Assembly: GCA_029245245.1 (NCBI GenBank)
Contig: JAQWPT010000032.1
Span: 62,001-126,000 of the forward strand
DNA length: 64,000 bases
Origin: Phycisphaerales bacterium
Lineage (GTDB): Bacteria; Planctomycetota; Phycisphaerae; Phycisphaerales; SM1A02
Direction of reading: 5' to 3'
Positions 7,671 through 49,826 of the stretch are shown in pieces. The notes beneath the pieces are model-generated. The model was not told the origin of the DNA. It did no database searches and worked only from the letters and a program-made list of their open reading frames with translations. The position numbers and the translations under genes are program-made. Each line of letters begins with the position of its first letter. Position 1 is the first letter of the stretch.

Positions 7671-7692
7671 CGAACCAGGCGACACCACCGCC

Positions 7693-7698
7693 TATGAT
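7693..7698 (+). promoter_or_regulatory. -10-like hexamer TATGAT before uvrA
   Basis: TATGAT ends 18 bases before the GTG at 7717. It lies just past the permease stop and supports the short start chosen for uvrA. No LexA-box-like palindrome is evident. Confidence 0.4.
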
Positions 7699-7716
7699 GG
7701 TCATCGGACCAGCATC

Positions 7717-13789: not shown

Positions 13790-13795
13790 GATGAC

Positions 13796-13801
13796 AGTGT
13801 A
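13796..13801 (-). promoter_or_regulatory. -10 TACACT for the DUF1573-ispD unit
   Basis: TACACT on the minus strand is followed by GTCATC and then the ATG at 13789. TTGACT lies 19 bases upstream of it on the same strand, a plausible if long-spaced -35. Transcription would begin at about the A of the start codon. Confidence 0.55.
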
Positions 13802-13896
13802 TCCCGAGCCGGGAACTGGCAGTCAACACGGTTTGACGAGCAGCAGCCTGAGGGCGAAGATGCCTCGCCATGGCTGTGCATGCACCATGACTTGAA

Positions 13897-13980
13897 GCCG
13901 AAGTGGCGGAATTGGCAGACGCGCCGGATTCAAAATCCGGTTCCCCTTGGGGAGTGTGGGTTCGAGTCCCACCTTCGGTA
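13897..13980 (+). tRNA. tRNA-Leu(CAA)
   Basis: An 84-base class II tRNA. The acceptor stem GCCGAAG pairs with CTTCGGT (first pair G-U), with discriminator A at 13980. The anticodon stem CCGGA/TCCGG encloses TTCAAAA, giving anticodon CAA at 13931-13933, which reads UUG. A long variable arm (CCCC/GGGG) and T-arm GTGGG-TTCGAGT-CCCAC complete it. No 3' CCA is encoded. The long variable arm with CAA supports leucine. Confidence 0.96.
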
Positions 13981-33414: not shown

Positions 33415-35114
33415 TCCGCAGCGCCTTGATCACCGGCCTCGCCTGCCTGCTGCTGGCCGGATGCGGAGAGTCTGCACCCCCGCAACGCACGCCGCCCGCC
33501 ACCGCCGCGGCACCAGCACCTCCGGCGGCACCATGGTTCGTCGATGCCACCACGGAAAGCAACATCAACTTCAACTGGACAAGTGGACAGTTCGGCGACT
33601 ACCTGCTGCCGGAAATCATCGGCGGTGGCGTCGCCCTCCTGGACGTCGACGGAGACAATGACCTCGATATCTACCTGGTGCAGGGCGGCGAAATCGAGTC
33701 CGCCCTCGACTCCAGCCGCACGAACCCCGCCTCAAATCGACTCTACCGGAACGATGGAGACTGGCACTTCCAGGACATCACCGAGGAAAGCGGCGCCGGG
33801 AATACCGGGTATGGACAGGGTGTGGCAACCGGGGACTACGACAACGATGGTGACCTCGATCTCTACGTGACGAACGTGGGACCGAATGCCCTCCTCCGCA
33901 ACGATGGCAATGGGCGATTCACCGATGTCACGACTGCTTCCGGCACGGCCCACCCCGGCTGGGGGACCAGCGCTGCGTTCCTTGATACCGATCGGGATGG
34001 TGACCTGGACCTCTACATCACCAACTACATCTCCTGGTCACCGGAAACGGAACTGGACTGTTCGCTGATGACTACCGGACGGGACTACTGTTCGCCCCGG
34101 AATTATGATGCCCCGGCCCGGGACGTGCTCTACGAGAACCTTGGCAATGGCCGCTTCAGCGATGTCACCGCCAAGGCCGGCATCGACACGAGCATGGGCA
34201 ACGGGCTCGGCATCGCCTGCGTCGATTTCGACGATGACGGGTGGACAGACATCTTCATTGCCAACGACGGAACCCGCGATCTGCTCTGGCACAACCAGCG
34301 CGATGGCTCCTTCAAGGACATCGGCCTGCTCGCCGGCTGCGCGCTTGATGATGAGGGGCGTCCCAAGGCCGGCATGGGCGTCACCGTGAGCGACATCGAT
34401 GACGACGGTGACATGGACCTGCTTGTCTGCAATCTCACCGGGGAGTCCGACTCTCTCTTCCGGAACGAGGGAACCTACTTCGTCGACATCACCGCATCAT
34501 CCGATCTGAGGACCACGACCAAGCCGTTCACCCGATTCGGCATGGCCTGGCTTGATTTCAACAACGATGGGTACCTGGATCTCTACGAAGCAAATGGTCG
34601 CGTCCTGCGGAGCCCCGTGCCCGAGGGCGTAGATCCCTACGCACAGCAGAACATGCTGATGCGTGGCTCCAGCCAGGGTGTCTTCAGCGAAGTCCTGCCT
34701 CGAGGTGGCGTCGTTGACCCCATTTCCCTGACTTCCAGGGCGGCGGCGTTCGGAGATCTGGACAACGATGGAGCCATGGACATCATCGTGGTCAACCGAG
34801 ATGCTCCGATCACCCTGCTCCGCAACATCGCCCCCGATGCGGGCCACTGGATACTGCTGCAGGTTCTTGATGAGCATGGGAGGGACGCGATCGGAGCCGT
34901 CGTCTCCGCCAGGATCGGCTCCAGAACCCTCAGTCGTCCCCTGCTGACCAACTACAGCTACCTGGCCGCCAACGACCCCCGCATCCATCTGGGACTGGGT
35001 GCCAACAAGTCCGTGGACACTGTGACCATCCGGTGGGTGGATGGGACTGCCGAGACCTTCGGTCCGCTCGCCGCCGATCGGCAGCATGTGCTTCAACGCG
35101 GCTCAGGACACTGA
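33411..35114 (+). CDS. CRTAC1-type FG-GAP/UnbV lipoprotein
   Basis: A 567-residue lipoprotein with lipobox LLAGC (Cys18) and an Ala/Pro-rich linker. The propeller of FG-GAP units begins about residue 40 ('LDVDGDNDLDIYLV', 'GDYDNDGDLDLYVTN', 'LDTDRDGDLDLYITN', 'VDFDDDGWTDIFIAND', 'LDFNNDGYLDLYEANG'). The ASPIC/UnbV domain closes the protein ('DAIGAVVSARIG', 'LGLGANKSVDTVTIRWVDG'). It is translationally coupled to the TPR lipoprotein. It is a paralogue of the 22808 and 27658 products, making three such proteins within 13 kb. Confidence 0.9.
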   Translation: MIRSALITGLACLLLAGCGESAPPQRTPPATAAAPAPPAAPWFVDATTESNINFNWTSGQFGDYLLPEIIGGGVALLDVDGDNDLDIYLVQGGEIESALDSSRTNPASNRLYRNDGDWHFQDITEESGAGNTGYGQGVATGDYDNDGDLDLYVTNVGPNALLRNDGNGRFTDVTTASGTAHPGWGTSAAFLDTDRDGDLDLYITNYISWSPETELDCSLMTTGRDYCSPRNYDAPARDVLYENLGNGRFSDVTAKAGIDTSMGNGLGIACVDFDDDGWTDIFIANDGTRDLLWHNQRDGSFKDIGLLAGCALDDEGRPKAGMGVTVSDIDDDGDMDLLVCNLTGESDSLFRNEGTYFVDITASSDLRTTTKPFTRFGMAWLDFNNDGYLDLYEANGRVLRSPVPEGVDPYAQQNMLMRGSSQGVFSEVLPRGGVVDPISLTSRAAAFGDLDNDGAMDIIVVNRDAPITLLRNIAPDAGHWILLQVLDEHGRDAIGAVVSARIGSRTLSRPLLTNYSYLAANDPRIHLGLGANKSVDTVTIRWVDGTAETFGPLAADRQHVLQRGSGH

Positions 35115-36346: not shown

Positions 36347-36802
36347 ATGTCGAATTTCACACGCCCAATCTGGACCGACGAGTTCTCCACGCCGACGATC
36401 GAGTCGCTTCGAGGCGAACTTGAAGCCACGAGTCGACCACTCTTCGACCATGCCCAATCCCTGTTCATGGACATGGACGAGATCGAGCAGGACTTCGCCT
36501 GGTACGGAGATTGCTGGCACTGGGTCATCACATTCTCCCTGGCCGATCACCATGATGATGAGCCGCTTGGCATCATCATTCCATCCCCCGAAGACCTCCA
36601 GGTGGCCATGCCGATGGACCAGAAGTTCCACAATTCGGTTCCCACCAAGCGAATGAAGCGAATGATCAAGGATGGTTTTGAACTGGCAGCCGAGCCGTTC
36701 CACACTTCATGGGCCGTCTGGAGCATCACCACCACCAGCATGCTCACGGACCTCGGTCAGCTGGCCAAGCAGAAACTCCGCTGGATCCTCGACAATCACT
36801 GA
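36347..36802 (+). CDS. Hypothetical soluble protein (151 residues)
   Basis: The protein is rich in Trp, His and Met, with 'DFAWYGDCWHWVITFSLAD' followed by an acidic turn and 'PLGIIIPSPEDLQVAMPMD'. The alternation suggests a beta-sheet ligand-binding fold somewhat like DUF3788, but that link is tentative. TACACT and a GAAGGA ribosome site support the start. It overlaps the 3' end of the convergent operon by seven bases. No signal peptide, no catalytic motif. Confidence 0.7.
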   Translation: MSNFTRPIWTDEFSTPTIESLRGELEATSRPLFDHAQSLFMDMDEIEQDFAWYGDCWHWVITFSLADHHDDEPLGIIIPSPEDLQVAMPMDQKFHNSVPTKRMKRMIKDGFELAAEPFHTSWAVWSITTTSMLTDLGQLAKQKLRWILDNH

Positions 36803-37584
36803 TCCGTATCGGCAGGCAGGACCTCTTCGACCGGTTGCCAGCGATCGCTGCGCCAGACCCGGCGATCGAGATCCAGTCCCAGCAGCGACCCGAGGTCGTG
36901 CGACTCGAGACTCTGCATCGGCCTTCCCCGCCAGGCCATCAGGGTCGCCGACCATGATTCCTCTCGACCACCGAGCAACCGCAACTGCACCTGCAGTTGA
37001 GCCACCTGTTCCGCCTGCGTCAACCGTTGCCGAGATCCTGATTCCTTGGACACCGACAGGTCATCGATGAGCCGTTGCATGCCGCCGGGAATCTCATCCT
37101 GGTAGACAAGCAGTCGTTCACGGACACCGGGAATGCTCCTGAGTCGCCGCCGGGCGTCCAACACTTCTCCCGATCGTGCGTACGACAGCACATCGAACGC
37201 AGCAATGGTAGCGCGATCTGTCTGGCCGAGCACGACGCGGGAATCCGGAAGCAGCCCAGCGGACCGTCCCTCCTGCAACTCGATCATCGATCGCAGCGCC
37301 CGGATCGTCGACTCGTCCTCGACCAGTTCGATGATCCCCAACAGGCCGCTGGTGCCCCACTGCTCGGGATCGAGGGTGACCGCAAGAGCGTAGAGTCGAA
37401 TGGCGAGACGCCGTTGCCGGGCATCCGTGGCCACATCGGCCACTTCCTCGGCCCGAAGGAAGTACTGGGAGGGATCCGATGGATCCAGTGCATCCAGTTG
37501 CCATCGTACAGCCGTTGAAGGGGCAGCCGCAGCCATGAATGAACTCAGGACGATGATGCCTGCCAGGGACAGCAATCGGATCAT
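36796..37584 (-). CDS. Secreted hypothetical protein, last gene of the ExbBD/VWA operon
   Basis: A 262-residue protein with a signal peptide or anchor at about 1-20 ('RLLSLAGIIVLSSFMAAAA') and a helical, TPR-like body ('LRAEEVADVATDARQRRLAIRLYALAV'). No known domain is recognised. The ATG overlaps the upstream stop by four bases, which fixes the start within the long open frame. Position at the end of the operon implies an envelope role with the ExbBD motor. Confidence 0.7.
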   Translation of the reverse strand: MIRLLSLAGIIVLSSFMAAAAPSTAVRWQLDALDPSDPSQYFLRAEEVADVATDARQRRLAIRLYALAVTLDPEQWGTSGLLGIIELVEDESTIRALRSMIELQEGRSAGLLPDSRVVLGQTDRATIAAFDVLSYARSGEVLDARRRLRSIPGVRERLLVYQDEIPGGMQRLIDDLSVSKESGSRQRLTQAEQVAQLQVQLRLLGGREESWSATLMAWRGRPMQSLESHDLGSLLGLDLDRRVWRSDRWQPVEEVLPADTDQ

Positions 37585-40484
37585 GTTCCACCTCCCCGAC
37601 CGCCCTGTTGCAGTTGCGAAAGAATGAACCTGATTCGAATCGACCAGAGTTCGACCACCGCGGTTTCCGTCAGCAGCATCTGCTCGACGACATGCACGGC
37701 GCGATCTCGCTTGAGGACCAGGTCGGATTGCAACTCGTCGAGCATGCTGGTTGCGCCGGGCTGGACCTGCTTCATCCAATACACCAGCAGTTCATGCATG
37801 GCGATCTGTTCAACGAGGAAACGCTGCAGCGAGTCGCCAGAAAGCATGAGCCGGGCAGTGTGTCGATCCTCCCACTCCCGTCCCCATGGCCATGGCTCTC
37901 CGTCCTGGAGTGTTTCAAGATGGTTCTGCCAGGCCGCAGTCAGTGCATGTGCAGATGCCTCTGGGGAACCGGCCGGATCGGCCGCCCAACCCAGGCCTTT
38001 CGATTCACGCCGCATGGATCGAGCAAGGGACTCCGACAGTGCATCGATCTGGCCGGATTCATTGAGACGAAGAGCCAAGGCATGATTGACCATGGCCAGG
38101 CGTGCCTCGATGGGCCAGCGCGTCGCACTCGGGCGAGGAAGTTCAGCCCCGGTCAACGATTCGATGAGCCCGGTCACGTCGACCGTCGCGGAAGCCTGCG
38201 GGAGCCGGTCAACCATTGCCTGAGCCATGTTCGGACCCAGGCTGTACCGGGTCTCGATGAGGTAGTGCGCCGCTTCACGAACACCGATGTTCGCGGTCAG
38301 CGCCTCTGACGCCAGGAGATCGGCATCGATCGGCCCCAGGTCGTCGCCACCATGCCGTTCCAGTTCCTGCATCATGTCGATCTTGTCGGCACGATTCCGG
38401 GCGCGGACGCCGTAGAGACGAGCCCACTGCCCGTCGACGCGCCCCCCGAGGCTGGTGACATCACGATTGAAACCGCGTGGATCGGAATCCAACAGGTCAT
38501 CGTACTGCTCAAGAACTCCTTCCAGTTCATTGAGCACGGACAACGTGTCACCTCCATGGCCCGTGACCAGGCCATCCGCTGCTTCCGCCAGCAACCGTTC
38601 CAGCAGCAGTCGGTGAAGCATCGGAAGCGTTCCACGATCACGGTCCACCGCACGAGCCTGCTTGAGCAGCGAGAGCCAGGTCTCCGCCAGTTGCGGATCG
38701 AAGCCTTCGGGTATGCCACGACCCGGCATGCCCACGATCGCGGTCGGCCGTGGCCAGGCCTGGGCCAGCCGTGCCTGGATGCGACGCCGCATGGGCAGGT
38801 CCGCATCCGGAGCCACGACGAATCGCCGCTCGTACCATGGCGTCTGTTCGATGGTGGCCAACGAACTGCCGAGCACCCACAGGTCCGTTGAACTGATGGC
38901 GGGATCCACGAACCAGCCGAGCACGGCACTGCGTACGCCGGCGGATTTGTCCCAATCGAGCTCGACCAGAAGGCGACCCAGCACCATCTGTGGGACTTCC
39001 GGTCGCGAGAGATCTGCCTGGGTCTCCAGCAGTTGCCGTGCCGCCTTCAGCAGGATCGCCTCACGCCCGGGCCCGTCATCGATGACGGCAAGGCATCGGA
39101 ACCAGAGTTTCCATGCCTCCGCCGCCGTCGCCCGCACATCAAGGCTCTCCACGAGTGACGGGATGCAGGCCGAAAGCCAGACCAGGACGCCATCATTGAA
39201 GGTGTCGGGGATGGCCTGCCGCCCGAGGGAAGTTCGAACATACTGCGTGGCAAGCGATCTCGCCGCAGGGGAGATGGTGTCGATGCCGACCAGGGCGCCG
39301 GTCATGCCACACTGCCAGGCTCCCCTGGGAATCGACAGTGGCTCAGCGGTGACCCCCGGACTCGGCGGAGCCAATGCTCCCAGCAGCGGTCCTGCGAGTC
39401 GTGGATTGGAACCGGTGACTTCGAGGACGCCGGCCATGGCCTTTCGCATGTTCTTCGCGGTCGTGGGGTCCGCCCCGAACCAACCCGTCGACGCCACGTC
39501 GATGGCACCCTCCCACTCCTCCTTCATGCGCCGATCGATGTCCTCCATTCCGACTGCATGTCGCGACAGCGAGTAGAGCGTCTGGATCGTCTCTGAACTC
39601 GCATCGACATCATCAAGTACTTCCGCCGGAAGCGGCTTCAACGGCAGTACCAGCGTTGACGTGAACGGGGCCAGGGGAACCTGGTTCACGCTGCCTCCTC
39701 CCGACTCGCCTGCAACCATGTCCAAGGCATCACGTGACTGCTTGAGTTCCAATGTCCCCGCCTGCTGCACACCGCCTGTTGTATCGACGAGCAGCAGTCG
39801 AAGCATCAGCAGCAGCGCAAGGATTCCCAGGCCACCAAAGAGGAAGCAGAGTTTGACCAGGGACCGGTTGTCTGATGCCCGAAGTTCCGGCGCGTACTGT
39901 CCGACCACCCGCTCCACGAACCCCGGTTCCATGGCACGCTGGGAAGATGATCCACGCCACGCCGGCCTGGTGGCAGCCGCAGGCAAGGCACTCAATCGAA
40001 CGACCGAAGTCAATCCGCGAAGTTCATCCACCATCTCCAGGGGCGACAGGCCGTGCATGGCTCCGATGGACGCCAGGCGGGAACGGGAAACCGCATTCCA
40101 TCCCCCGCACGATGCGAGTACCTGCATGAGCTGCACCTGGATGGTCGTCAACTCCACGGAGGCTGCCGAGGGAGGCGTGGCGGTAGTCGATGGAATCGGT
40201 ACTTCCGCCGGCGTCTCCACCCGCCTCGACGCATGCTCCACCTGGATGTCCTGCCACTGGTCCGGATCCTTGAGTCGCGATGCAGCGTCCCGAAGCGTGG
40301 CCCGCGCCGCCTCGGCCATGCTCGAACGTCCGTCCGGGTGGTCGTAGATCCGGGCCAGGCGGGACACGAGCGCCGCGTCCACCACCGGGCCACTGCACGA
40401 ACTCGGGTCAAGCCCCAGCAGTGTCAAGGGATCGCTGTCCGCCGGAACACCGATGAAGCGCATCGTGGGGTCCGGACGGCTCAT
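37581..40484 (-). CDS. Hypothetical membrane protein of the ExbBD/VWA operon
   Basis: A 967-residue protein. The first 80 residues ('DPLTLLGLDPSSCSG...LARIYDHPDGRSSMAEAARATLRDAASRL') look like a J-domain or similar helical adaptor but lack an HPD motif. A second helical segment at about 110-165 resembles a winged helix or tellurite-resistance-like fold. One membrane helix lies at about 215-235, and the remaining 730 residues are helical and extracytoplasmic. ATGA overlaps at both ends place it firmly in the operon. Function unknown. Confidence 0.75.
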   Translation of the reverse strand: MSRPDPTMRFIGVPADSDPLTLLGLDPSSCSGPVVDAALVSRLARIYDHPDGRSSMAEAARATLRDAASRLKDPDQWQDIQVEHASRRVETPAEVPIPSTTATPPSAASVELTTIQVQLMQVLASCGGWNAVSRSRLASIGAMHGLSPLEMVDELRGLTSVVRLSALPAAATRPAWRGSSSQRAMEPGFVERVVGQYAPELRASDNRSLVKLCFLFGGLGILALLLMLRLLLVDTTGGVQQAGTLELKQSRDALDMVAGESGGGSVNQVPLAPFTSTLVLPLKPLPAEVLDDVDASSETIQTLYSLSRHAVGMEDIDRRMKEEWEGAIDVASTGWFGADPTTAKNMRKAMAGVLEVTGSNPRLAGPLLGALAPPSPGVTAEPLSIPRGAWQCGMTGALVGIDTISPAARSLATQYVRTSLGRQAIPDTFNDGVLVWLSACIPSLVESLDVRATAAEAWKLWFRCLAVIDDGPGREAILLKAARQLLETQADLSRPEVPQMVLGRLLVELDWDKSAGVRSAVLGWFVDPAISSTDLWVLGSSLATIEQTPWYERRFVVAPDADLPMRRRIQARLAQAWPRPTAIVGMPGRGIPEGFDPQLAETWLSLLKQARAVDRDRGTLPMLHRLLLERLLAEAADGLVTGHGGDTLSVLNELEGVLEQYDDLLDSDPRGFNRDVTSLGGRVDGQWARLYGVRARNRADKIDMMQELERHGGDDLGPIDADLLASEALTANIGVREAAHYLIETRYSLGPNMAQAMVDRLPQASATVDVTGLIESLTGAELPRPSATRWPIEARLAMVNHALALRLNESGQIDALSESLARSMRRESKGLGWAADPAGSPEASAHALTAAWQNHLETLQDGEPWPWGREWEDRHTARLMLSGDSLQRFLVEQIAMHELLVYWMKQVQPGATSMLDELQSDLVLKRDRAVHVVEQMLLTETAVVELWSIRIRFILSQLQQGGRGGGT

Positions 40485-43081
40485 GGAGCACCACCGTCGG
40501 GAGTCGTCCCCAAACGCCGGTGGATGGCTCGAAGCCGACTCCCCCACGGTTCCGGGCCCCACCCTGGAAAGAGCACCTGGTGCTGCTCCAGCACGCTTCT
40601 CGCATGCTCATGGTCTGCATGTTCCAGCAGTTCAAGCAGGTTGGTACGCGCTTCGAACCACGCATCGGAACCGGAGGACGTGCCGTTCATCAGGATGCGC
40701 CAGCAACGCATGGCCTCCTCGGTTTCACCCTGCGAAGGAGAAAGGAGCCCGCGTCCACGGAGAAACTTCTGGTTGCGAGGGTGGACGGCGAGCAGTTGCC
40801 CATACATGAGCCATGCATCTCGTCCGACGGATTCGTCCCTGCTGCCAAGCCAGGATTCAAGACCGGCGGATGCGACGATGGATGCAACGGCAACCATCCC
40901 GGGAGATTCCATCGCTTCGGATACGGACGCCTCCTCCTGCAGCAGCAGGCCCCCGTACCAGATCAGCCGCTGGGCATCACTGCGCCGATCCATCGATGCA
41001 TCGGCTGCCACCCAGCGATCCCGGGTGAACCGGAAGAAGGCCCGGATCGCAAGCCGGGTCCACAGTCCTTCTGGATCCACCTCGATCAGCCTCTCGACCA
41101 GCTGCTGGGCCGCTTCAATCCTGTCGCGTGCCAGGTCCAGCTGGACCGCCCGGTAGGCGATTTCATGGGTGTACCCCTCCGGAGGCTGGATGGCCATGGC
41201 GTCCAGTTCCGCCAGAGCGTCAAGTACCGTGTCGGCTGCGACAAGGCGCTGCAGCCCTTCATCAAGAGCGACCTCGAGAATACGTCGACTGCGGGCGATG
41301 GCTCGCCCTGCTGCCTGGGCGTCTGTACTGCCCGCTTCCATGTCGAGCATGAACAGCGGAACGGCGATGGTCAGGTATTTTCCACCGCTTTCAACTCGCT
41401 GCTCCTGCGTCCCGGAGGCAAAGAGCTGGTAGAGCATCCGGGATGCGCCATGCTGGGCATCGAGCCAGGCAGAATCCTGATCGGACACCGACAGGAGCTG
41501 TTCAACCACATCCAATGACGGCTCCGCACCGGCGGCCCGACGCACGGCGAGCTCGCCCGCCCTGGCACCATCGGGAAACATCGACAGGTACCGCTCCACG
41601 AGCGAGTCCAACCGTTGAATCGATTCCGCCTGTTCATCGATGTGAACCACCTGGTCCTGGCACACGATGGCCATCCACAGCGACTCCTCGTAGCGATCCC
41701 GATCGTTCTGCTCCAGGACCCAGAGGAAGCGGTCCCGGGCATCGGCGTAGCGGCCCTGCGAGTACAGGCACCAGGCAAGCAGTGATCCACAGCCAGCCTT
41801 CGCCGTACCCCATCGATCCCGATCGGACTCGGCAAGCGCCATCGCAAGCAGTCGCCCGGCCTCCTGGTATGCCTCCCGGGCCTCATCCGTTTCCGGCACG
41901 CCATCGGCATTGGACCTGGACTTCGCCTCCTGGAAGTTCAGCACACCCCGCGCGTAGGCCAGGGCGAAGCCACCACGATCGGCCAGGACTTCGCCATAGC
42001 GTTCAACGAGGTCATAGAGATGATTCAGTGCATTGCGTGCCGCCAGTTCCGCAACCGCCCGGTCCGCAAGTTGCAGAGCCCAGGCGTCTCCTCCCGCCTC
42101 CAGGGCATGGACGGCGATCAGGCGCCACCATGTCGTGGGGATGATGGTGCCCGCCTCCTGCAGGTCGTCCACCAGCATCGACGCTCGCTCGTACTCCCCG
42201 TTGTCCAGCAACACCGCCAATCGCCAACCCGGAAGCATGGACTGGATCGATTCGGACACGTTGGATTCTTCCAGCAGGTCGAACCAGAGCATCGTGGTGA
42301 CCGAACTGTGCGTCATGCCGCGGCTCGCTGCCATCCCGAGAATCGACCAGGCGATGACATCCTCACTGCGCAGATCCCTTGAGACGTACTCGGGCTTGAT
42401 GAAGCCGGGCTCCAGTTCAAGGAGTTCCGCGAAGATCGCCTCGGCCTGCTCCGCCAGCATCGGGTCACTCGACAACCAGGCCCGGTAGTAACTTGCCCAG
42501 CCAAGCAGGTACCGCGTGCGGCGCAGCAGTTGTTCCTGCCGAGCCAGCCGCTCTCGACGAGAGGTCGCTCGGAAGGGAGCCCCCCGCTCGATCGAACGTG
42601 CCGTGCTCTCAAGGGCTCGCTGCGTGCGGGCCTGGACCTGCTCCAGTTCCGTAATGAGTTCATCCAGTGTCTCGATGGCCTGCTGCGTCTCGCCGAGATC
42701 ATCGAGCCGAAGGCGATGCCGCTCGGCGACGTCCTCGGCGACCAGGTAGCGGCCATTGATCAGTTCCACCCGCAGATCGTCCGCCTCTCCGGCGGGAATG
42801 CCCTTGAGCAACTGGAGCCCACGCATCTCCAGGTATGCCCTGTCTCCACGGTCCTCCGCCGTCATCAGCAGGCGGGCGTAGAGCCTGGCCAGCCGCTTGG
42901 CCGCAGCGGACCTGGCATCGCCGGTCATGGAATCCATCTGCTGCTCGAGGTGAATCACGAGCAGACGTTCCAATCCCCGTGATTCGAGGAACGACGACAC
43001 GTCATCCGCCCTGGCCGAACCAGCCATGAGGACGCACACGCTGAAGACCATGGCGAGAAGATGGCTACTCCTGAGGCACAT
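40481..43081 (-). CDS. Secreted TPR-like protein of the ExbBD/VWA operon
   Basis: An 866-residue protein with a signal peptide (cleavage likely after 'SARA', about residue 25). The body is almost wholly helical with degenerate tetratricopeptide-like units ('LAWCLYSQGRYADARDRFLWVLEQND', 'RAVQLDLARDRIEAAQQLVERLIEVDPEG'). It is periplasmic. ATG 43081 has AGGTGA five bases upstream and overlaps exbD by 17 bases; ATG 43051 would also leave a signal peptide. It probably forms the periplasmic arm contacting the ExbD dimers; this is inferred from order only. Confidence 0.8.
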   Translation of the reverse strand: MCLRSSHLLAMVFSVCVLMAGSARADDVSSFLESRGLERLLVIHLEQQMDSMTGDARSAAAKRLARLYARLLMTAEDRGDRAYLEMRGLQLLKGIPAGEADDLRVELINGRYLVAEDVAERHRLRLDDLGETQQAIETLDELITELEQVQARTQRALESTARSIERGAPFRATSRRERLARQEQLLRRTRYLLGWASYYRAWLSSDPMLAEQAEAIFAELLELEPGFIKPEYVSRDLRSEDVIAWSILGMAASRGMTHSSVTTMLWFDLLEESNVSESIQSMLPGWRLAVLLDNGEYERASMLVDDLQEAGTIIPTTWWRLIAVHALEAGGDAWALQLADRAVAELAARNALNHLYDLVERYGEVLADRGGFALAYARGVLNFQEAKSRSNADGVPETDEAREAYQEAGRLLAMALAESDRDRWGTAKAGCGSLLAWCLYSQGRYADARDRFLWVLEQNDRDRYEESLWMAIVCQDQVVHIDEQAESIQRLDSLVERYLSMFPDGARAGELAVRRAAGAEPSLDVVEQLLSVSDQDSAWLDAQHGASRMLYQLFASGTQEQRVESGGKYLTIAVPLFMLDMEAGSTDAQAAGRAIARSRRILEVALDEGLQRLVAADTVLDALAELDAMAIQPPEGYTHEIAYRAVQLDLARDRIEAAQQLVERLIEVDPEGLWTRLAIRAFFRFTRDRWVAADASMDRRSDAQRLIWYGGLLLQEEASVSEAMESPGMVAVASIVASAGLESWLGSRDESVGRDAWLMYGQLLAVHPRNQKFLRGRGLLSPSQGETEEAMRCWRILMNGTSSGSDAWFEARTNLLELLEHADHEHARSVLEQHQVLFPGWGPEPWGSRLRAIHRRLGTTPDGGAP

Positions 43082-43487
43082 ACGTCACCTGCTGAAATCC
43101 GGCGTCACGTGCCGACTGCACCGCAGCCAACGCGAACTCCACCGGGATGCCCGGGGATACCCGGACGAATACGCCGATCTCCTTGGGCAGATCCTCAAGC
43201 ACCCGTGTCAGGGACGGCAGGTCATGAAGCATGCGATCACCGATGATGTACGTGGATCTCCCCTTGAGTTGAACCACCTCGATGACCTGTGGCTGGTAGT
43301 CGACTTCCGCTCCGGACGTCTCCGAATCACGTGTCTGGATCGAGGACGTCAACTGGTCTTCGGGACGAGCCATCACCGTGCTGACGATGAAGTACACCAG
43401 CAGCAGGAAGGTTACGTCGATCATGCTGGCGAGATTCAGAGCCAGGCGATCCACGCGTGCACGTGATTTTCGCGCCTGGAATCTCAC
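43065..43487 (-). CDS. ExbD/TolR family protein (second copy)
   Basis: A 140-residue biopolymer transport protein: short cytoplasmic N-terminus, one membrane helix at about 18-40 containing the functional Asp ('LASMIDVTFLLLVYF'), and a periplasmic domain ending 'ARDAGFQQVTYVP'. In ExbB-ExbD motors this Asp carries the proton path. It overlaps the first exbD by four bases. Two divergent ExbD copies in tandem suggest a heterodimer in the motor pore. Confidence 0.92.
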   Translation of the reverse strand: MRFQARKSRARVDRLALNLASMIDVTFLLLVYFIVSTVMARPEDQLTSSIQTRDSETSGAEVDYQPQVIEVVQLKGRSTYIIGDRMLHDLPSLTRVLEDLPKEIGVFVRVSPGIPVEFALAAVQSARDAGFQQVTYVPQE

Positions 43488-43933
43488 GGCGTCCTCCCAC
43501 GGCCTCCCATGGCCGGCACTTCCGTGCCCATCCGGGCCGCTCCCACTCCAACCTTGTGCAGCAGTCGAACCACCTCGTTCAACCGCGTGGTCGATGCCCG
43601 GGCATCGGCACGCACCAGGACACGGGCCTCCGTAGCCCCCTCGCCCACGAAGGTGTCTCGGAGGCGCTGCTCAAGTTCATCAAGTTGCAGCGGCGTCTCG
43701 GAAACCGACAGGATGATGGATCCGTCTTCCTGGATGTTGATCACCAGTCCGGCTTCCTCCGATTCATCCCGCTGTTCGCCGTCGAGCTTCGGCAGTTCCA
43801 AATCGGCCCGGACGTCACGAGCGAACTCCGAGGTCACCATGAAGAAGACGATGAGCAGGAAAACGACATCGATCATGGGAGTCAACTCCACCATGAGCGT
43901 GCGTGTTCGAGCTCGTCGACCGGAGAATCTCAA
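43484..43933 (-). CDS. ExbD/TolR family protein (first copy)
   Basis: A 149-residue protein. The membrane helix at about 15-37 carries the conserved Asp ('LTPMIDVVFLLIVFFMV'), followed by a periplasmic domain ('VVRLLHKVGVGAARMGTE'). It is closer to the ExbD consensus than the second copy. It is coupled by four-base overlaps to exbB upstream and exbD2 downstream. Confidence 0.93.
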   Translation of the reverse strand: MRFSGRRARTRTLMVELTPMIDVVFLLIVFFMVTSEFARDVRADLELPKLDGEQRDESEEAGLVINIQEDGSIILSVSETPLQLDELEQRLRDTFVGEGATEARVLVRADARASTTRLNEVVRLLHKVGVGAARMGTEVPAMGGRGRTP

Positions 43934-44637
43934 CGGGCCGACCCGCTGGAACCGGCCCCGCTGTCCTCAAGATGCAGCAGAAGCCGCTCGATCTCTCGCC
44001 CGGCCTCGGATGCAAGGGCATCGATCCGGTTTCGAAAGTATGTGAAGAGTGCCACGCAGGGAATCGCGAGAATCAGCCCCATCAAGGTGGTGACGAGTGC
44101 GAGACTGATGTTCGATGCCAGTTCCTCGTAGTTGGAACCTGCGCTGCGCGAGACCGAGTCGAATGCGCCGACCATGCCGATGACCGTGCCGAGCAGGCCC
44201 AGCAACGGAGCGATCGTGCCGATCACTCCAAGTCCGTCCGTCGCCCTGTACAACCGTGCGGTCTGGTCTTCACCAGCCTCCTCGATGGCGTTCTTGATCT
44301 CGAAGATGCCGAACGCGGATCGCTGGAACCGCAGCAGGCCGGCTCCCATGACACGGGTCAGGAAGGAATCATGGATCGGATCGAGGCAGTACTCCAGTGC
44401 CCCGTCGAAGTTGCCCGTGGAAAGCCGCTGCTCCAGTTCCAGGAGTTGCGCCTCGGGCAGGACCGAGCTTCGCCGGATCTGGACGAAGTGGTAGACCACC
44501 AGCCCGAACGCCACGATGCTCAGGGCGATGATGATGAACCCTACCGTTCCACCCGTAAGGATGGTGTCCCACCACGTCTTGGGGACATCCGGGATCGATG
44601 CGCCAAGGAACATCGAGGCTGGAATCGTGATACTCAT
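43930..44637 (-). CDS. ExbB/TolQ/MotA family proton channel protein
   Basis: A 235-residue protein with three membrane helices at about 25-50, 130-155 and 170-195. Helices 2-3 contain the family signature 'TIAPLLGLLGTVIGMVGAF' and 'ALVTTLMGLILAIPCVALF'. It forms the pentameric stator ring around the ExbD dimer and uses the proton gradient across the inner membrane. No TonB gene is in the operon, so force is presumably passed to the VWA or TPR partners. Four-base overlaps on both sides. Confidence 0.93.
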   Translation of the reverse strand: MSITIPASMFLGASIPDVPKTWWDTILTGGTVGFIIIALSIVAFGLVVYHFVQIRRSSVLPEAQLLELEQRLSTGNFDGALEYCLDPIHDSFLTRVMGAGLLRFQRSAFGIFEIKNAIEEAGEDQTARLYRATDGLGVIGTIAPLLGLLGTVIGMVGAFDSVSRSAGSNYEELASNISLALVTTLMGLILAIPCVALFTYFRNRIDALASEAGREIERLLLHLEDSGAGSSGSAR

Positions 44638-45770
44638 GGAGTCTCCTTCTCCGGAAGCGTTGCCATGCCTTCGACGCCACGTCGAAGTACGGGATGGGCA
44701 GGGTGCATGCGTCGAAGATCCGTCCGCATGCGGCGAGCCGCATCGACATCATCGTGCGCGTCGAACTGGTCGGCCATGATAGCCATGGCAACCCCCGACA
44801 GGTATGGCTGGGCCTGTCCCCAGCGGGCAGGCACATGCGACAACGAAAGGAGGCCTCGTCGTTGCTGGCCCATGCCCGGTTCCATCAACAACGAGCGACC
44901 GAGTTGGAAGCGGATCCAACTCTCCACCCATGGATCCGGATCCGTGGCCAGCATTGCTTCCAGGTCCGCTCGTGCCGACTTCCGCACGACATCATCCTGA
45001 TGCAGTGCATTGATCATCCGCCCCAGCAGGAGGGCCCCGGAGGATTCGAGAATCACCTCGTCCTCCAGATCGACGGGGTCGATCTTCTCTCCCATCGACT
45101 GCCGGATGCTGCGGCCATAGAGCGAACTCAGCAACGCCAGCGATTCGTCGTCCCCCGCGTCCCAGGATTCCGTCGCAGGAATCCGTGAGGCCAGTGCCGG
45201 CCCCCGGATCCAGGCCGGAGGAAGGTACGGAACAAGCCCGGCATCGACGTCCACAAGATGGATCAGCCCCGGGCTTTCTCCACCGATCGACGGGGGAAGC
45301 AGTTGCGCATAACTGTCGGTCTTGATGCCAAGTCGGCGGAGCCTGGATACTTCCAGCGCTGGCAGCAGCGCGGCATCGAGCTCTCCGCGCTTGAGTCGAC
45401 AACGAAGCAGTCCTTCCGCGACGACCAGTGCCGTTTCACTCGTTCGCCCGATGGTGCCGGGAAAGAGCACCTCGAAGATGGGTTCGGCCAGTTCGGTATC
45501 ACCCCGTTCAAGGCGGGTTCGAGCCCGCCAGAGCCGGGCCCCCTGTTCAAGGAACTGCTCCAGTCGCGGAAAGCGGTCGTCTTTCGACTGCACATCGGAG
45601 ATCCGATCCCAGGACAGGACCACCGGGGTGGCCCCCTCGACCTTGATCCGGACACCGTCTTCATCGAGACGCGAGATGCTGCCCTGCATCGGATCCCCGC
45701 CCCCCCGGGGCACGACGAGATCCGTGGCCAGTGTCCCAAGCGCGATGCACAGAATGGTGAACGACGTCAT
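44634..45770 (-). CDS. Secreted hypothetical protein of the ExbBD/VWA operon
   Basis: A 378-residue protein with a short signal peptide at about 1-18. An N-terminal beta motif ('DPMQGSISRLDEDGVRIKVEG...LSWDRI') resembles the small Sm-like or SH3-like repeats often found ahead of planctomycete TPR proteins. A helical, TPR-like body follows ('FQLGRSLLMEPGMGQQRRGLLSL'). It is translationally coupled between the VWA gene and exbB. No function assigned. Confidence 0.72.
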   Translation of the reverse strand: MTSFTILCIALGTLATDLVVPRGGGDPMQGSISRLDEDGVRIKVEGATPVVLSWDRISDVQSKDDRFPRLEQFLEQGARLWRARTRLERGDTELAEPIFEVLFPGTIGRTSETALVVAEGLLRCRLKRGELDAALLPALEVSRLRRLGIKTDSYAQLLPPSIGGESPGLIHLVDVDAGLVPYLPPAWIRGPALASRIPATESWDAGDDESLALLSSLYGRSIRQSMGEKIDPVDLEDEVILESSGALLLGRMINALHQDDVVRKSARADLEAMLATDPDPWVESWIRFQLGRSLLMEPGMGQQRRGLLSLSHVPARWGQAQPYLSGVAMAIMADQFDAHDDVDAARRMRTDLRRMHPAHPVLRRGVEGMATLPEKETP

Positions 45771-46747
45771 GGTCCCCCCGATTCAACGAAACGATAGACC
45801 CCACCGGATTCGAGGGCGATCTGCATGAGCAATTCCTGGCTGGTCGCCTCGCCGAATGCGATCGTATTCACCACGGTGCGAAGACCGCGATTGTTCAATG
45901 CGGCCACGTTCGCCGCCTTCATCCTCGTGATATCGCCGTCGGTCAGAAAGAAGATGACGTCAGGACGTTCATCAAGCCCGAACACCCGCTTGAATGCCGG
46001 AAGCGGATTTGTTCCGCCATTGGCGTGCAGGCCCTGCACCCAGTTGGAGATGCGACGGATGATCGGCGCCCGCGCCAGCATCCATCCCTCCTGGCCCGGC
46101 GGCTCCTCCGTGCCATCGCTGTAGAACACGATGAAGAACTTGGCAAAGTCCGGCAGGGCTCGGATTGATCGGCGGAGTTCCATCTTCGCCTTCTTCATGC
46201 GATCCCCTGTCATGGACCCGGACATGTCCACGATGTAGGCGAACCGGCGTCCGGCAGTGGTGATGCCGAAGAACGATCCCGCGGCTCCGGAGCCGCCCAG
46301 TCCGGTGACGTTGCTGCGCGAGCCGGCACCTCCGAGGGTCGGCGTCGAGCCAACGCCGGTGATCTCCAGCAGGGCCGAGCTGCTGTCGGCGGTCAACTCG
46401 CTCTGCTGCCGCTGGTCCAGCAGCTGGTCGAGACTGGCCAGTGCCTCCTCGGTCGGTTGCGTCAGATCGCTTTGCGGCAGGTCGGTCAACTCCTCGTCCG
46501 GGAGCAGGGTCGCGATCGAAACCTGGAACTCCTGGACACCCTGGGCCGCCCGGGCCCGATCAATCAGGTGAAGCCCGATCATCAGGCCGATGTGACAGAG
46601 GACCGAAATGAGGACCGCCCACAGCAGGAGATTCCGCAACCGGGAGCGGCGGATCAGCTGCTGGCGTTCCCGCAGTGCAAGCACCTGGGCGGCAAGTGAA
46701 CCGGGGGAGACTGGTTCAGCCCCTCTGGATGTCGGCCTCTCATGCAT
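45767..46747 (-). CDS. Membrane-anchored von Willebrand factor A domain protein
   Basis: A 326-residue protein: cytoplasmic basic N-terminus, one membrane helix at about 39-61, a low-complexity Gly/Ser linker, and a periplasmic VWA domain from about 165. The metal site is intact: 'DMSGS' at 174-178, with a later 'TDGD'. The layout of the helix and linker recalls TonB-like proteins, so it may be what the ExbBD motor pulls. It is the first gene of the operon; CAGGA lies upstream of the ATG. Confidence 0.88.
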   Translation of the reverse strand: MHERPTSRGAEPVSPGSLAAQVLALRERQQLIRRSRLRNLLLWAVLISVLCHIGLMIGLHLIDRARAAQGVQEFQVSIATLLPDEELTDLPQSDLTQPTEEALASLDQLLDQRQQSELTADSSSALLEITGVGSTPTLGGAGSRSNVTGLGGSGAAGSFFGITTAGRRFAYIVDMSGSMTGDRMKKAKMELRRSIRALPDFAKFFIVFYSDGTEEPPGQEGWMLARAPIIRRISNWVQGLHANGGTNPLPAFKRVFGLDERPDVIFFLTDGDITRMKAANVAALNNRGLRTVVNTIAFGEATSQELLMQIALESGGVYRFVESGGP

Positions 46748-46887: not shown

Positions 46888-47655
46888 ATGTCGAAACAGC
46901 CCTTCTACCAACGAGTACTCCTGAAGATCAGCGGGGAGAGCTTCTCCAGCCCCGGTGGGTTCGGCATCGATGCCGATGAACTCAAGACCATCGCGGGCGA
47001 AATCGTCTCCGCCGCGGCTTCCGGCACCCGGATCGCCGTGGTCGTGGGAGGAGGCAACATGATCCGGGGCGCGGACCTTTCCCGCCGTATCGAGATCGAC
47101 CAGGCCACCGCCGACTACATGGGGATGCTTGGAACAATCATGAACGGCATGGCGCTCAAGGAGGCCATCGAGGGACTGGGGCACGAGGCCAGGGTCATGT
47201 CCGCCATTGATGTCCCGGCGATCGCCGAGCCGTTCATCCGAAAGCGGGCCATGCGGCATTTCGAGAAGGGACGAGTCGTCATTCTCGTCGCCGGAACAGG
47301 CAACCCATTCTTCACCACCGATACCTGCGCGTCCCTTCGAGCCACCGAGTTGAACGTGGACATCCTGCTGAAGGCGACCAAGGTCGACGGCATCTACGAC
47401 TCCGATCCGATGAAGAACCCCGACGCGAAACGCTACGACGTACTGAGCTACCAGGAAGCCCTTGAACGCCAACTGGGCGTCATGGACCTCACCGCGCTCT
47501 CGATGTGCATGGAGCGGAACCTGCCCGTCGTGGTCTTCGACTTCAAGGCCGATGGCAACATCCGCAGGGTGATCGAAGGCGAAGCAATCGGCACGCTCCT
47601 GACCACATCAGAAAATGCAACGAAGCCGAGATCGACCTCGGCCAGCCGATCCTGA
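46888..47655 (+). CDS. pyrH: UMP kinase
   Basis: A 255-residue hexameric UMP kinase of the amino-acid-kinase fold, making UDP from UMP and ATP. Motifs: 'LLKISGESF' (phosphate binding), 'VVVGGGNMIRG', 'ADYMGMLGTIMN' and 'AGTGNPFFTTDT'. The frame is open upstream, but ATG 46888 is where the family begins. The C-terminal 17 residues (Thr/Ser/Arg-rich) exceed the usual length. It is followed by frr, the common bacterial pyrH-frr order. The 140-base gap upstream is the divergent promoter region with the VWA operon. Confidence 0.95.
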   Translation: MSKQPFYQRVLLKISGESFSSPGGFGIDADELKTIAGEIVSAAASGTRIAVVVGGGNMIRGADLSRRIEIDQATADYMGMLGTIMNGMALKEAIEGLGHEARVMSAIDVPAIAEPFIRKRAMRHFEKGRVVILVAGTGNPFFTTDTCASLRATELNVDILLKATKVDGIYDSDPMKNPDAKRYDVLSYQEALERQLGVMDLTALSMCMERNLPVVVFDFKADGNIRRVIEGEAIGTLLTTSENATKPRSTSASRS

Positions 47656-47732
47656 AGTACACGAATGCCCACAGATATCCAGAATACCTGTCGCCCCTGG
47701 CGCCATGAACACGCTGACCCGAGGAACCGATC

Positions 47733-48299
47733 ATGAGTAATGACACCTTCCGCGAATGTCGATCAAAGATGGACAAGACCATCGAGCACTTCGAGTTGGA
47801 ACTGCGTGGCATTCGTACCGGTCGAGCCAGTACGGCACTCGTCGAGTTTCTCAAGGTCGAATGCTATGGATCGCTCTGCGACCTGCGTGATGTCGCGGGC
47901 GTCAGCGTACCCGAGCCCACCCAGATTCTCGTCAAGCCCTTCGATCCCACGACCAAGAACCCCATCGCGAAAGCGATCGAATCGGCCGAACTCGGTCTGA
48001 ACCCACAGGTCGAAGGCGACGCCATCCGGATCCACCTGCCACCTCCATCCGCCGAGCGTCGCAAGCAACTGTGCGCCCAGGTCAAGAAACTGGCCGAGGA
48101 TTCGAAGATCGCGATACGCAACGAGCGACGTGATGGTGTCAAGCAGGTGGAGTCGCTGGTCAAGGACAAGAGCAACTCGTTCTCGGAGGATCTCGGCAAG
48201 ATCTCGCGATCGAACATCGACGATCTGACCCGGGACATGACCAAGCGGATCGAAGACATCAGCATCCAGAAGACGCAGGAGATCGAGCACGCTTCCTGA
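47733..48299 (+). CDS. frr: Ribosome recycling factor
   Basis: A 188-residue protein that with EF-G splits post-termination ribosomes. The N-terminal helix contains 'ELRGIRTGRAST', and 'PEPTQILVKPFDPT', 'IRIHLPPPSAERRKQL' and 'RNERRDGVKQVE' are RRF signatures. GAGGAA precedes the ATG. It is the last gene of the pyrH unit; rpoN converges 18 bases away with no terminator visible. Confidence 0.97.
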   Translation: MSNDTFRECRSKMDKTIEHFELELRGIRTGRASTALVEFLKVECYGSLCDLRDVAGVSVPEPTQILVKPFDPTTKNPIAKAIESAELGLNPQVEGDAIRIHLPPPSAERRKQLCAQVKKLAEDSKIAIRNERRDGVKQVESLVKDKSNSFSEDLGKISRSNIDDLTRDMTKRIEDISIQKTQEIEHAS

Positions 48300-48317
48300 G
48301 GAAGGGGCTCGATCCGT

Positions 48318-49826
48318 TCAGAACTGCTTCCGAAGCCGGGCCGGGGGAATCCCCATCTGCTGCCGGTACTTGACGACCGTACGGCGGGCGATGTCGATCC
48401 CGCGTTCCTTCAACGCCACGGCGAGCAGTTCGTCGCTCAGTGGATGGGCGCGATCCTCCCCTTCCACGATCTCACGCAGAATCTCCTTGACGGCTTCCCA
48501 ACTGACGTTGCGCCCGGATTCCGTCTCGGTTCCGCCCGAGAAGAACCGCCGAAGGCGGATCATCCCGCGTGGAGTCTGCATCCACTTGTCGGCCACGGCC
48601 CGACTCACCGTCGCCACGTGCACACCGAGTTGATCGGCCACATCGACCATGGGCATGGGCTTGAGATGCTGGGGACCGAGATCGAAGAACTCCCGCTGCC
48701 GGGACAGCACGACATTCACGACCCGCAGGAGCGAGTTTGATCGCTGGTTGATGGACTCGATCAACCACTGCGCATTGCTGACGTTTCGACTGATGAAGCC
48801 TCGGGTTTCCTTGTCGAGCCCATTGTCCTTGGCCATCTCCCGATAGCGTGGAGAAACGCGAAGCGGCGGGAGCATCCCGTCGCACAGCGCCGCGATGTAC
48901 GCGTCGGCCTCCTGGTCGAACTCGACGATGACATCGGGGATGATCGGAGGAACGTCGACCTGAACCAGTTCCAGTCCCGGTGACAGGTTCAATCGGTGCA
49001 TCAGGTTCATGGCAGAACGGACCTGGTCGAGTGTCAGTCCGGTCTCGGATGCGATCCGTGGCAGACGATTCTGAACGAGGTCTTCCATGTGCTCCTCGAT
49101 GAGCCGCCCGACCACTTCCCAGTCTTCGCTGTCGTCGCTCTGCTGCTGGCACGCCTCGACCTGCAGAAGCAGGCATTCCTTGGTACTGCGGGCTCCGAGG
49201 CCCGCGGGTTCCAACCACCGCTGCAGGATCGGCAGAGTGTCCTCCAACTGCTGCAGCGTCATGCCCTGCTCGACCGCTTCCGAGTTCTGCTCGAGGATCG
49301 TCTCGAGATCCGTGCCGAGCAGTCCCTCGTCGGTGATGTTCTGGATCAACAGCGTCCCAGCCGCTTCGGCATGCTCGTCGACCTCCGCGAAGGTCCACTG
49401 GTGCTGCAACTGGTCGGCCAGCGGAGTGCCTCGCCCCTCAAGGTTCGCCATGGCATCCATCTTCCAGTCCCGCTCCCCGGACTGGCGGGAGGGCGAGAAA
49501 CTCGAGGATGAATACTCATTGTCCATGGCTTCCGAGTAGTTCGTCTCCAGCGATTCCAGTCGCTGAAAATCGTCGGCGCCGTCCGTCTCCTCTCCGACGA
49601 CCATCTCCTGGGAATCGATGGTGTCTTCGGTCCCCTCCTCGGGAACCTCTCCGCTGCCGTCTCCTTCGGCGATGTCCAGGGCGATGTTCGATTCCAGTTC
49701 CTGATCCACTCGTTCCTGCAACGCCAGCAGCGGCATCTGCAGGATCTCCATGGACTGGATCATCCGCGGGCTCAGCTTCATCTGCTGGCCCAACTTCATG
49801 TGCTGGTTGGTTTCGAACTGCATCAT
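48318..49826 (-). CDS. rpoN: RNA polymerase sigma-54 factor
   Basis: A 502-residue protein. Gln/Met-rich region I is at the N-terminus ('MKLGQQMKLSPRMIQSMEIL'), an acidic region II lies at about 55-120, and then come the core-binding and helix-turn-helix regions. The RpoN box 'ARRTVVKYRQQ' lies about 15 residues from the C-terminus and reads the -24 element. TAGAAT (49872-49877) lies 45 bases upstream of the start. No enhancer-binding activator is in the window. Confidence 0.95.
   Translation of the reverse strand: MMQFETNQHMKLGQQMKLSPRMIQSMEILQMPLLALQERVDQELESNIALDIAEGDGSGEVPEEGTEDTIDSQEMVVGEETDGADDFQRLESLETNYSEAMDNEYSSSSFSPSRQSGERDWKMDAMANLEGRGTPLADQLQHQWTFAEVDEHAEAAGTLLIQNITDEGLLGTDLETILEQNSEAVEQGMTLQQLEDTLPILQRWLEPAGLGARSTKECLLLQVEACQQQSDDSEDWEVVGRLIEEHMEDLVQNRLPRIASETGLTLDQVRSAMNLMHRLNLSPGLELVQVDVPPIIPDVIVEFDQEADAYIAALCDGMLPPLRVSPRYREMAKDNGLDKETRGFISRNVSNAQWLIESINQRSNSLLRVVNVVLSRQREFFDLGPQHLKPMPMVDVADQLGVHVATVSRAVADKWMQTPRGMIRLRRFFSGGTETESGRNVSWEAVKEILREIVEGEDRAHPLSDELLAVALKERGIDIARRTVVKYRQQMGIPPARLRKQF

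Follow-up and report, generated by a model that had tools for sequence, protein, structure and literature searches.

Eight minus-strand genes at positions 36796-46747 of the 64-kb window (the whole stretch of DNA analysed) very probably encode a proton-driven, envelope-spanning machine in which a VWA protein stands in TonB's place. The first-pass annotation had described an eight-gene overlapping operon with six four-base overlaps and one of 17 bases, in the order VWA, TPR-like, ExbB, ExbD, ExbD, 866-residue TPR-like, 967-residue membrane and secreted protein; coordinates and gene calls agree with it throughout. With the starts chosen below, the 17-base overlap is the one between ExbD2 and TPR-like protein 2 (TPR2). 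The features, all on the minus strand, are:

45767..46747, minus strand: VWA force-transducer candidate, 326 aa, ATG start; N-terminal tail, one membrane helix, linker of ~105 residues, VWA domain (Pfam VWA_3)
46568..46630, minus strand: VWA protein residues 40-60, a membrane helix of TonB/TolA type; S and H in 20/20
46592-46606, minus strand: S48 to H52 of that helix, SxxxH motif
44634..45770, minus strand: TPR-like protein 1, 378 aa, ATG start; signal-like N-terminus; family without a Pfam name
43930..44637, minus strand: ExbB/TolQ-type motor subunit, 235 aa, ATG start; PF01618
43484..43933, minus strand: ExbD1, 149 aa, TTG start; PF02472
43065..43487, minus strand: ExbD2, 140 aa, GTG start; PF02472
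40481..43081, minus strand: TPR-like protein 2, 866 aa, ATG start; all-helical solenoid, signal-like N-terminus
37581..40484, minus strand: membrane protein, 967 aa, ATG start; J-like N-terminal domain, one membrane helix, helical solenoid
40221..40442, minus strand: divergent J-domain-like domain of the 967-aa protein, residues 15-88; helix layout and weak profile support
39786..39869, minus strand: predicted membrane helix of the 967-aa protein, residues 206-233; helix in the model, pLDDT ~41-77, hydrophobic by eye
36796..37584, minus strand: secreted protein, 262 aa, ATG start

Two of these lengths depend on the start: the longest open reading frame of the membrane protein gives 993 aa from an upstream GTG, and that of the last secreted protein 327 aa from an upstream TTG.

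The full set was found in 15 of 20 fetched relatives, which were hand-picked among the listed matches for spread and size of contig. Homologs of TPR-like protein 1 occur in 19 of the 20 and of the 262-aa protein in 15. Three loci (L041, L045, L049) each lack one or two of the eight genes, and two more (L042, L050) lack some because the contig ends. Gene order is kept across distant families of the order (Phycisphaerales, according to record titles), and the core order also occurs in other planctomycete families. The unusual overlap between ExbD2 and TPR2 recurs as well, at 17 or 20 bases in 17 of the 19 relatives with both starts assigned; this recurrence, together with the kept order, shows that the operon is more than chance. 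Are the genes, then, unrelated and merely adjoining? Movement of the motor trio out of the operon does occur, and to this extent the refuting case named beforehand, homologous genes scattered in relatives, applies: six genomes carry the trio at another site, and in four more it was not found. It does not apply to the array itself, and since order and overlaps are conserved and six of the ten motor-less genomes retain the departed motor in trans, we rejected chance clustering as scarcely credible.

The range of the system was followed with the gene for the 866-residue solenoid, which 129 of 201 Phycisphaerales genomes carry (E<=1e-20), mostly as a single copy and across four families. All 67 genomes of family f2 have it; in family f1, 12 of 67 were missed at this threshold, of which at least one (G023, the genome of locus L045) has a divergent copy. 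At the same threshold it is absent from families f5 (0/9) and f6 (0/51), so some members of the order can do without the machine. Of 100 fetched loci, 86 include pyrH. In a sample of the phylum, 15 of 25 matches to the solenoid profile were partial, and nine fetched loci had the solenoid gene without an adjoining motor. A plasmid collection gave no match.

The motor proteins are readily recognized. ExbB matches MotA_ExbB (PF01618, E 2e-27), and ExbD1 and ExbD2 match the ExbD domain (PF02472, E 1e-20 and 2e-11), all over the Pfam cut-off. The pore threonines T151, T183 and T184 of ExbB are kept in 21/21 sequences, as are the membrane aspartates D22 of ExbD1 and D24 of ExbD2. The earlier claim of a proton-driven motor is thus backed by kept proton-path residues in all three subunits, from which proton flow is predicted. 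A MotA/MotB-like pair (MotB assigned by eye) is encoded on contig C27 of the genome that carries the operon.

The VWA protein had been suggested to be what the motor pulls on instead of TonB. Its VWA_3 domain (residues 172-320, E 5e-12) retains the metal-site residues D174, S176, S178, T246 and D270, all invariant in 20/20 sequences. The membrane helix ends near residue 61, leaving a linker of ~100 residues before the domain. SxxxH in this helix is invariant in the 20 rows of alignment A2, from which L037 was excluded because its VWA gene contains a masked run, and it occurs in 72 of 74 scorable VWA loci. These came from 80 named loci, the best of 319; six were omitted, three being cut by contig ends and three having no recognized metal-site motif but showing SxxxH all the same. 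At the H position the exceptions are L111, which has N, and L162, which has nothing; N also occupies this column in TonBs L252, L253 and L257 of the same order, and by our own count H is found there in only 15 of 20 TonB rows. Compared with TonB N-termini of the order, the VWA helix gave an hhalign score of 33.5, as against <=14.1 for nine control segments. The TonB-like L27 position is not kept (L in 10/20) and the S31 position is variable in the 20-row alignment. A scan of genome contigs with the single VWA protein covered 96 stretches and gave no relative.

Searches for Ton and Tol markers bear on the same point. The genome that carries the operon has no match to the TonB C-terminal domain (PF03544) or to the receptor Plug (PF07715), so we rejected a hidden TonB system, and the absence of TonB and an outer-membrane receptor, first noted in the operon, extends to the genome; a standard TonB-box partner was not seen either. 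The TolB N-terminal domain (PF04052) was found in none of 61 genomes of the order, this one included, with the search positive in E. coli, Caulobacter and Bacteroides as controls, and on this ground we rejected a Tol-Pal operon. Plug is present in 30 of the 61 genomes. In family f2 it is found in none of 15 sampled genomes, and TonB_C is over the cut-off in one of the 15 and below it in one more. Omp85 is present in all 61, and the operon's own genome has an Omp85/BamA protein. Given the conservation, the motor residues, the TonB-like helix and the lack of Ton and TolB markers in the genome itself, we consider the replacement of TonB by the VWA protein to be well supported at the level of sequence.

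How does this arrangement compare with known systems? It shares with TonB-ExbB-ExbD the ExbB/ExbD motor and a TonB-type anchor helix, but the TonB C-terminal domain and receptor plug are missing from its genome. It shares with Tol-Pal a motor, a single-helix transducer and genes for periplasmic partners, including a TPR protein (CpoB in Tol-Pal; PMC12204202), but no TolB_N was found in the 61 genomes and VWA stands where the C-terminal domain of TolA does. The closest parallel is that of Williams-Jones et al. 2025 (PMC12204202), who, in the part of the paper available, describe SHLS-vWA force transducers in the PVC group, encoded next to tolQ, a pair of tolR genes and one gene for a TPR protein and given as of unknown function. 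As there, the operon's VWA protein has a membrane helix with SxxxH, a linker of about 100 residues and a VWA fold replacing the C-terminal domain of TolA/TonB, and its neighbors are tolQ-like, two tolR-like and TPR, the TPR assignment here coming from a model and a weak profile; likeness to the Tichowtungia-type vWA was judged from such published features (PMC12204202). The differences from that description are that the later L and S of the motif are not kept here, that VWA is the first gene rather than a downstream one, that there are two TPR-like genes rather than one plus the 967-aa J-like membrane protein and the 262-aa secreted protein, and that the motor is in trans in some genomes (PMC12204202). 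A second published vWA family, whose helix lies inside the TolQ pore and which has no TolR, likewise has a VWA protein with one membrane helix and an adjoining ExbB/TolQ; we rejected it here because of the two ExbD genes and SxxxH (PMC12204202). The machine had first been called undescribed. The principle has been in print since 2025 (PMC12204202), so that label no longer fits it, whereas a larger version with the extra parts was not found in the literature searched. What is new is the additional conserved subunits, the distribution in the absence of Ton or TolB, measured here in one order and going beyond the available account of SHLS-vWA (PMC12204202), and the detachable motor. The main text of two PVC essential-gene papers (PMC10632474, PMC12283558), the part of them covered, does not contain ExbB, ExbD, TolQ, biopolymer or von Willebrand.

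The accessory subunits are harder to annotate. The TPR labels fall below the Pfam cut-off (best E 0.007 for TPR2, 0.34 for TPR-like protein 1), the 967-aa and 262-aa proteins have no Pfam match and the former no NCBIfam match; a solved-structure search with TPR-like protein 1 gave nothing convincing (best E 0.028). The AlphaFold2 model of TPR2 (mean pLDDT 88.5) is an all-helical solenoid of ~40 helices without strands; that of the 967-aa protein has mean pLDDT 78. Among the 50 Foldseek matches listed for each model most were eukaryotic solenoids, with a few bacterial ones (9hmf, 8sxf, 8rw5), and TM-scores did not exceed 0.28 among those listed. The Campylobacter flagellar periplasmic scaffold (9hmf) also places a large helical periplasmic protein around a proton motor; its chain 9hmf_K ranked 15 with the 866-aa model at a TM-score of ~0.2, a generic solenoid match. 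VIA-align gave the 967-aa model a best Z of 8.6 and others below 8, all beyond residue 180 and so not covering the J-like domain. Neither fold comparison pointed to a function. In that domain the modeled helix layout fits the J fold, with weak sequence support. Against a profile of 23 J domains of the order, recovered by pattern among DnaJ loci, it scored 22.3 (P 0.0014), at an hhalign probability of only 17.5; shuffling the columns 30 times gave <=13.2 and other windows of three operon families <=16.3. The five best matches in a solved-structure search were all DnaJ (best E 0.016), and two of 16 family members match Pfam DnaJ (best E 0.0037). The HPD motif is not conserved, being present in only some of the 16 rows, where L23 and A38 alone are invariant (alignment A3 has 15 rows, alignment A4 16).

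What might the machine do? We think it probable that the operon specifies a single trans-envelope machine driven by the proton gradient, with VWA as the pulled element and general envelope upkeep of the Tol-Pal kind as its task, the task being our best guess. Upkeep is the most likely one because the genome has an outer-membrane assembly protein and lacks the TonB C-terminal domain, receptor plug and TolB N-terminal domain. ExbB, probably in five copies, would hold ExbD1 and ExbD2, probably as a heterodimer, in a 5:2 proton motor. The VWA protein would dock outside ExbB by its TonB/TolA-type helix with SxxxH, its linker would cross the periplasm, and its domain, with the metal site intact, would grip a partner near the outer membrane on which the motor could pull. 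Both secreted helical proteins, together with the J-like/solenoid protein anchored in the membrane, may form a scaffold or the gripped complex.

Ton-type motors classically energize uptake, and the same machine could serve that end if VWA opened or loaded a non-TonB outer-membrane transporter and the solenoids passed on a polymer or other large substrate; receptor plugs are missing from half of the genomes sampled in the order, which might depend on a different active route. However, no transporter or degradative enzyme was recognized by eye among the genes at 33.4-49.8 kb, and the operon's occurrence in four families, mostly as a single copy and usually near pyrH, counts against uptake because uptake systems vary with diet. 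We therefore regard uptake as unlikely. Less likely still is adhesion or surface motility, with the VWA domain an adhesin moved by the motor, as Myxococcus gliding pairs AglRQS with the VWA adhesin CglB. The metal site here is intact, and gliding was suggested for the published vWA family (Williams-Jones et al., PMC12204202, available part); the TonB-like helix, however, is predicted to tether the protein to the inner membrane, and the genome has the MotA/MotB-like pair besides. Bat operons also combine VWA and TPR genes, and with a J-like domain to recruit DnaK the operon could be a Bat/MoxR-type unit for envelope protein quality in which VWA and TPR proteins assemble clients. The chance of this is slim, since none of the eight proteins has a MoxR/AAA match, HPD is not conserved, and such a unit has no place for a motor with fully kept proton residues.

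To our knowledge, ExbB/TolQ motors were long known to transmit force to the outer membrane through TonB and TolA alone. Going beyond the upkeep reading, we tentatively suggest that in most Phycisphaerales the eight-protein complex may be a general envelope force machine that replaces Tol-Pal and, where TonB is gone, any Ton-type task, with VWA as the hand, the J-like solenoid protein as a link to the cytoplasm and a swappable motor: the operonic motor has left in some lineages, and a second ExbB-ExbD-ExbD set may drive the machine in others. If so, one VWA-handed complex does the job of Tol-Pal in most of the order. A lineage with Omp85 in all sampled genomes, no TolB and in part no plugs, which retains a motor operon with a VWA transducer, mostly in single copy, makes the role of vWA transducers testable, and candidate co-subunits can now be named: two secreted helical proteins, the J-like membrane solenoid and the small secreted protein.

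The motor trio is missing from the operon in nine or ten genomes, which are natural tests of which motor, relocated or otherwise, drives the VWA protein. No operon-type ExbB was found in G483, G485, G486 and G487 (best 149 bits); either the partnership of VWA with this motor is not absolute or these draft genomes are incomplete. Eight comparison genomes score 288-363 bits, five of them having been rows of the model. Six of the ten genomes have an operon-type ExbB-ExbD1-ExbD2 elsewhere, with ExbB scoring 252-289 bits in a profile built from operonic ExbBs only, as against <=169 bits for the order's ExbBs encoded outside any such operon or trio, and in the tree the relocated ExbB nests inside the operonic clade with support of 98/95.

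The eight genes form a real, conserved proton-motor operon. They occupy the minus strand from 46747 down to 36796, in the order VWA protein, TPR1 (378 residues), ExbB, ExbD1, ExbD2, TPR2 (866 residues; the solenoid gene), a 967-residue membrane protein and a 262-residue secreted protein. The coordinates of the window's ORFs bear out the tight packing described in the first-pass annotation, with six junction overlaps of 4 bases and one of 17. Pfam matches were obtained for four of the eight proteins (VWA, MotA_ExbB, ExbD, ExbD); TPR signals in the 378- and 866-residue proteins were weak, and the 967- and 262-residue proteins had no Pfam match. Since pyrH is divergent upstream and a convergent gene lies downstream, the operon appears to extend over these eight genes. 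A pyrH match was found inside 86 of 100 fetched loci and a frr match inside 71, positions being checked among the matches listed; some contigs are represented by two loci, and a short locus cannot reveal a match. The surroundings hold:

46912-49826, pyrH, frr and rpoN, adjoining the operon
36347-36802, plus strand, convergent 151-residue gene overlapping the operon end by 7 bases, with a homologue in 23 of the 100 loci
33411-35114, plus strand, 567-residue lipoprotein-like protein with repeated D-x-D-x-D-G motifs, which by eye we take to be of the FG-GAP/ASPIC-UnbV type

The source genome comprises 2.69 Mb in 38 contigs and is 96% complete. Searching 201 genomes of the order with the VWA protein gave matches in 191, many through the VWA domain only, and from the matches listed 20 loci were hand-picked and fetched as relatives. 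All eight families occur in the same order in 15 of the 20, one to three genes being missing from the other five (in L042 and L050 through a contig end); the full standard order is also present in 36 of the 80 named loci, which are the best 80 of 319. The 4-base overlap of ExbB and ExbD1 recurs in 16/20 relatives; at the other 4-base junctions, five in all, it recurs in 9-11 of 15-20. Of 19 relatives, 12 have a 17-base and five a 20-base overlap between ExbD2 and TPR2; junction starts were set by script, and some odd overlap values may be start errors. As a marker, the 866-residue family is found at E<=1e-20 in 129 of the 201 genomes (a single match in 125, two in four), distributed by family as f1 55/67, f2 67/67, f3 1/1, f4 6/6, f5 0/9 and f6 0/51. 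In the phylum sample it was detected at E<=1e-8 in 25 of 294 genomes, 15 of the 25 matches being partial. The core VWA-TPR1-ExbB-ExbD-ExbD-TPR2 is present in the neighbourhood fetched from family f56 and in two copies per genome in f73, where one copy also has the membrane protein. Family f9, of the same class, has the core without TPR1 and matches the last two genes weakly, and in nine other fetched phylum loci the solenoid gene has no adjoining motor.

Could the VWA protein be the pulled element in place of TonB, as initially proposed? Its membrane helix has only two invariant residues, S48 and H52 (20/20 aligned sequences), and this SxxxH is kept in 72 of 74 scorable loci among the best 80 of 319. 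SxxxH is part of the SHLS motif of TonB, whose subsequent L and S are not conserved here. In a profile comparison with 20 TonB N-termini from the same order, the helix and first linker part scored 33.5 (P 1.8e-6, probability 90, His aligned on His), against at most 14.1 for nine control segments (further membrane or signal sequences from this operon) and at most 25.9 for 60 shuffles of the helix columns; masking S and H lowered the score to 21.1. These results support the proposal. The VWA domain likewise has an invariant metal site. Three TonB proteins of the order (L252, L253, L257) have N at the conserved membrane His position, as does the VWA protein of L111. A VWA protein of family f6 (L083, 5436-6545, minus strand) has one hydrophobic helix without SxxxH and is a possible contrast case; no ExbB-profile match was found in the 14 kb fetched around it.

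In the motor, ExbD1 D22, ExbD2 D24 and ExbB T151, T183 and T184 are conserved in 21/21 sequences (window plus 20 relatives). Because two different ExbDs both carry the aspartate, their sequences suggest an ExbD1/ExbD2 heterodimer.

Homologous genes scattered in relatives, an outcome named in the first-pass annotation as telling against its reading, were not found, with one exception: the ExbB-ExbD1-ExbD2 trio alone lies elsewhere in six of ten motor-less genomes, and the other four have no operon-type ExbB. ExbB and ExbD are absent between TPR1 and TPR2, which are adjacent or fused, in 9 of 62 named loci extending as far as the solenoid gene (L108, L109, L113, L123, L126, L137, L145, L155 and L159; L104 is similar but cut). 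L108, L109 and L113 have a TPR1-TPR2 fusion of ~1200-1300 residues, and SxxxH is kept in all eight of the nine loci with an uncut VWA N-terminus. The six relocated ExbBs scored 252-289 bits with a profile built only from operonic ExbBs, whereas ExbBs not belonging to such an operon or trio reached at most 169. The six nest in the operonic clade of a 57-row tree (support 98/95); the tree program flagged long branches in other parts of the tree. Five of the six are among the rows of a second profile, A7, which gave the six 327-363 bits and found no ExbB above 149 bits in the other four genomes. These four carry a different ExbB-ExbD-ExbD set (L171, truncated beyond its first ExbD; L173, L176, L179). 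Genome G490 has two trios around one VWA gene (locus L120):

6539-8331 and 12187-13920, the two motor trios, one just upstream of the VWA gene and the other inside the operon

The upstream ExbB groups with the relocated ExbBs (99/96). This arrangement looks like a likely intermediate step of motor relocation.

An AlphaFold2 model of TPR2 is an all-helical solenoid (mean pLDDT 88.5). That of the 967-residue protein (mean pLDDT 78) has helices at 19-23, 32-48, 55-72 and 74-88, then one at 206-233, interpreted as the membrane helix, followed by a helical solenoid. Its N-terminus resembles a J domain in its first helices and in the HP(D) that separates helix two from helix three:

40221-40442, minus strand, divergent J-domain-like N-terminus, residues 15-88 of the 967-residue membrane-anchored solenoid protein

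Against a profile of 23 J domains of the order this region scored 22.3 (P 0.0014, probability only 17.5; shuffles <=13.2), and its top five solved-structure matches were DnaJ (best E 0.016). Because the HPD motif is not retained in all 16 aligned rows of the family, the domain may serve as a scaffold and not as a DnaK activator.

No Plug, TonB_C or TolB_N was detected in the source genome, which extends to the genome the first-pass remark that TonB and an outer-membrane receptor are missing. Among 61 genomes of the order, Plug occurs in 30 (f1 8/16, f2 0/15, f3 1/1, f4 6/6, f5 8/9, f6 7/14), TonB_C in 29 (28 over the cut-off; in f2, 1/15 over it and one more below), Omp85 in 61 and TolB_N in none. 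The solenoid gene is present without a receptor plug in 20 of the 61; therefore the machine is independent of TonB receptors. As to its task, Tol-Pal-like envelope upkeep is our first choice, because the operon is mostly single-copy, is usually near pyrH and occurs in genomes that lack TolB, and because inspection by eye of the genes at 33.4-49.8 kb showed no transporter partner.

We are fairly sure of the machine type. The description 'undescribed proton-driven envelope machine' stands in part: the force-transducer class is published, as SHLS-vWA force transducers encoded next to a TPR gene, tolQ and two tolR genes in the PVC group, whose function is stated as unknown in the passage concerned (Williams-Jones et al. 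2025, PMC12204202), whereas section 8 of that paper leaves the further subunits seen here unmentioned. Judged from titles and abstract openings in the open-licence PMC literature, no other paper describes this operon. On the features examined, the operon belongs to that class as a larger variant.

The source genome has a second, paralogous vWA-motor operon (L207, contig C33), all on the minus strand:

9295-8327, VWA gene, whose helix carries SAVLH
within 8450-7251, further gene
7254-6457, ExbB
6450-5980, ExbD
within 6229-5459, second ExbD
5666-2982, gene for ~890 residues

Its ExbB sits on a long branch of the ExbB tree, apart from the operonic clade, and the genome's Omp85 gene lies ~6 kb from the operon.
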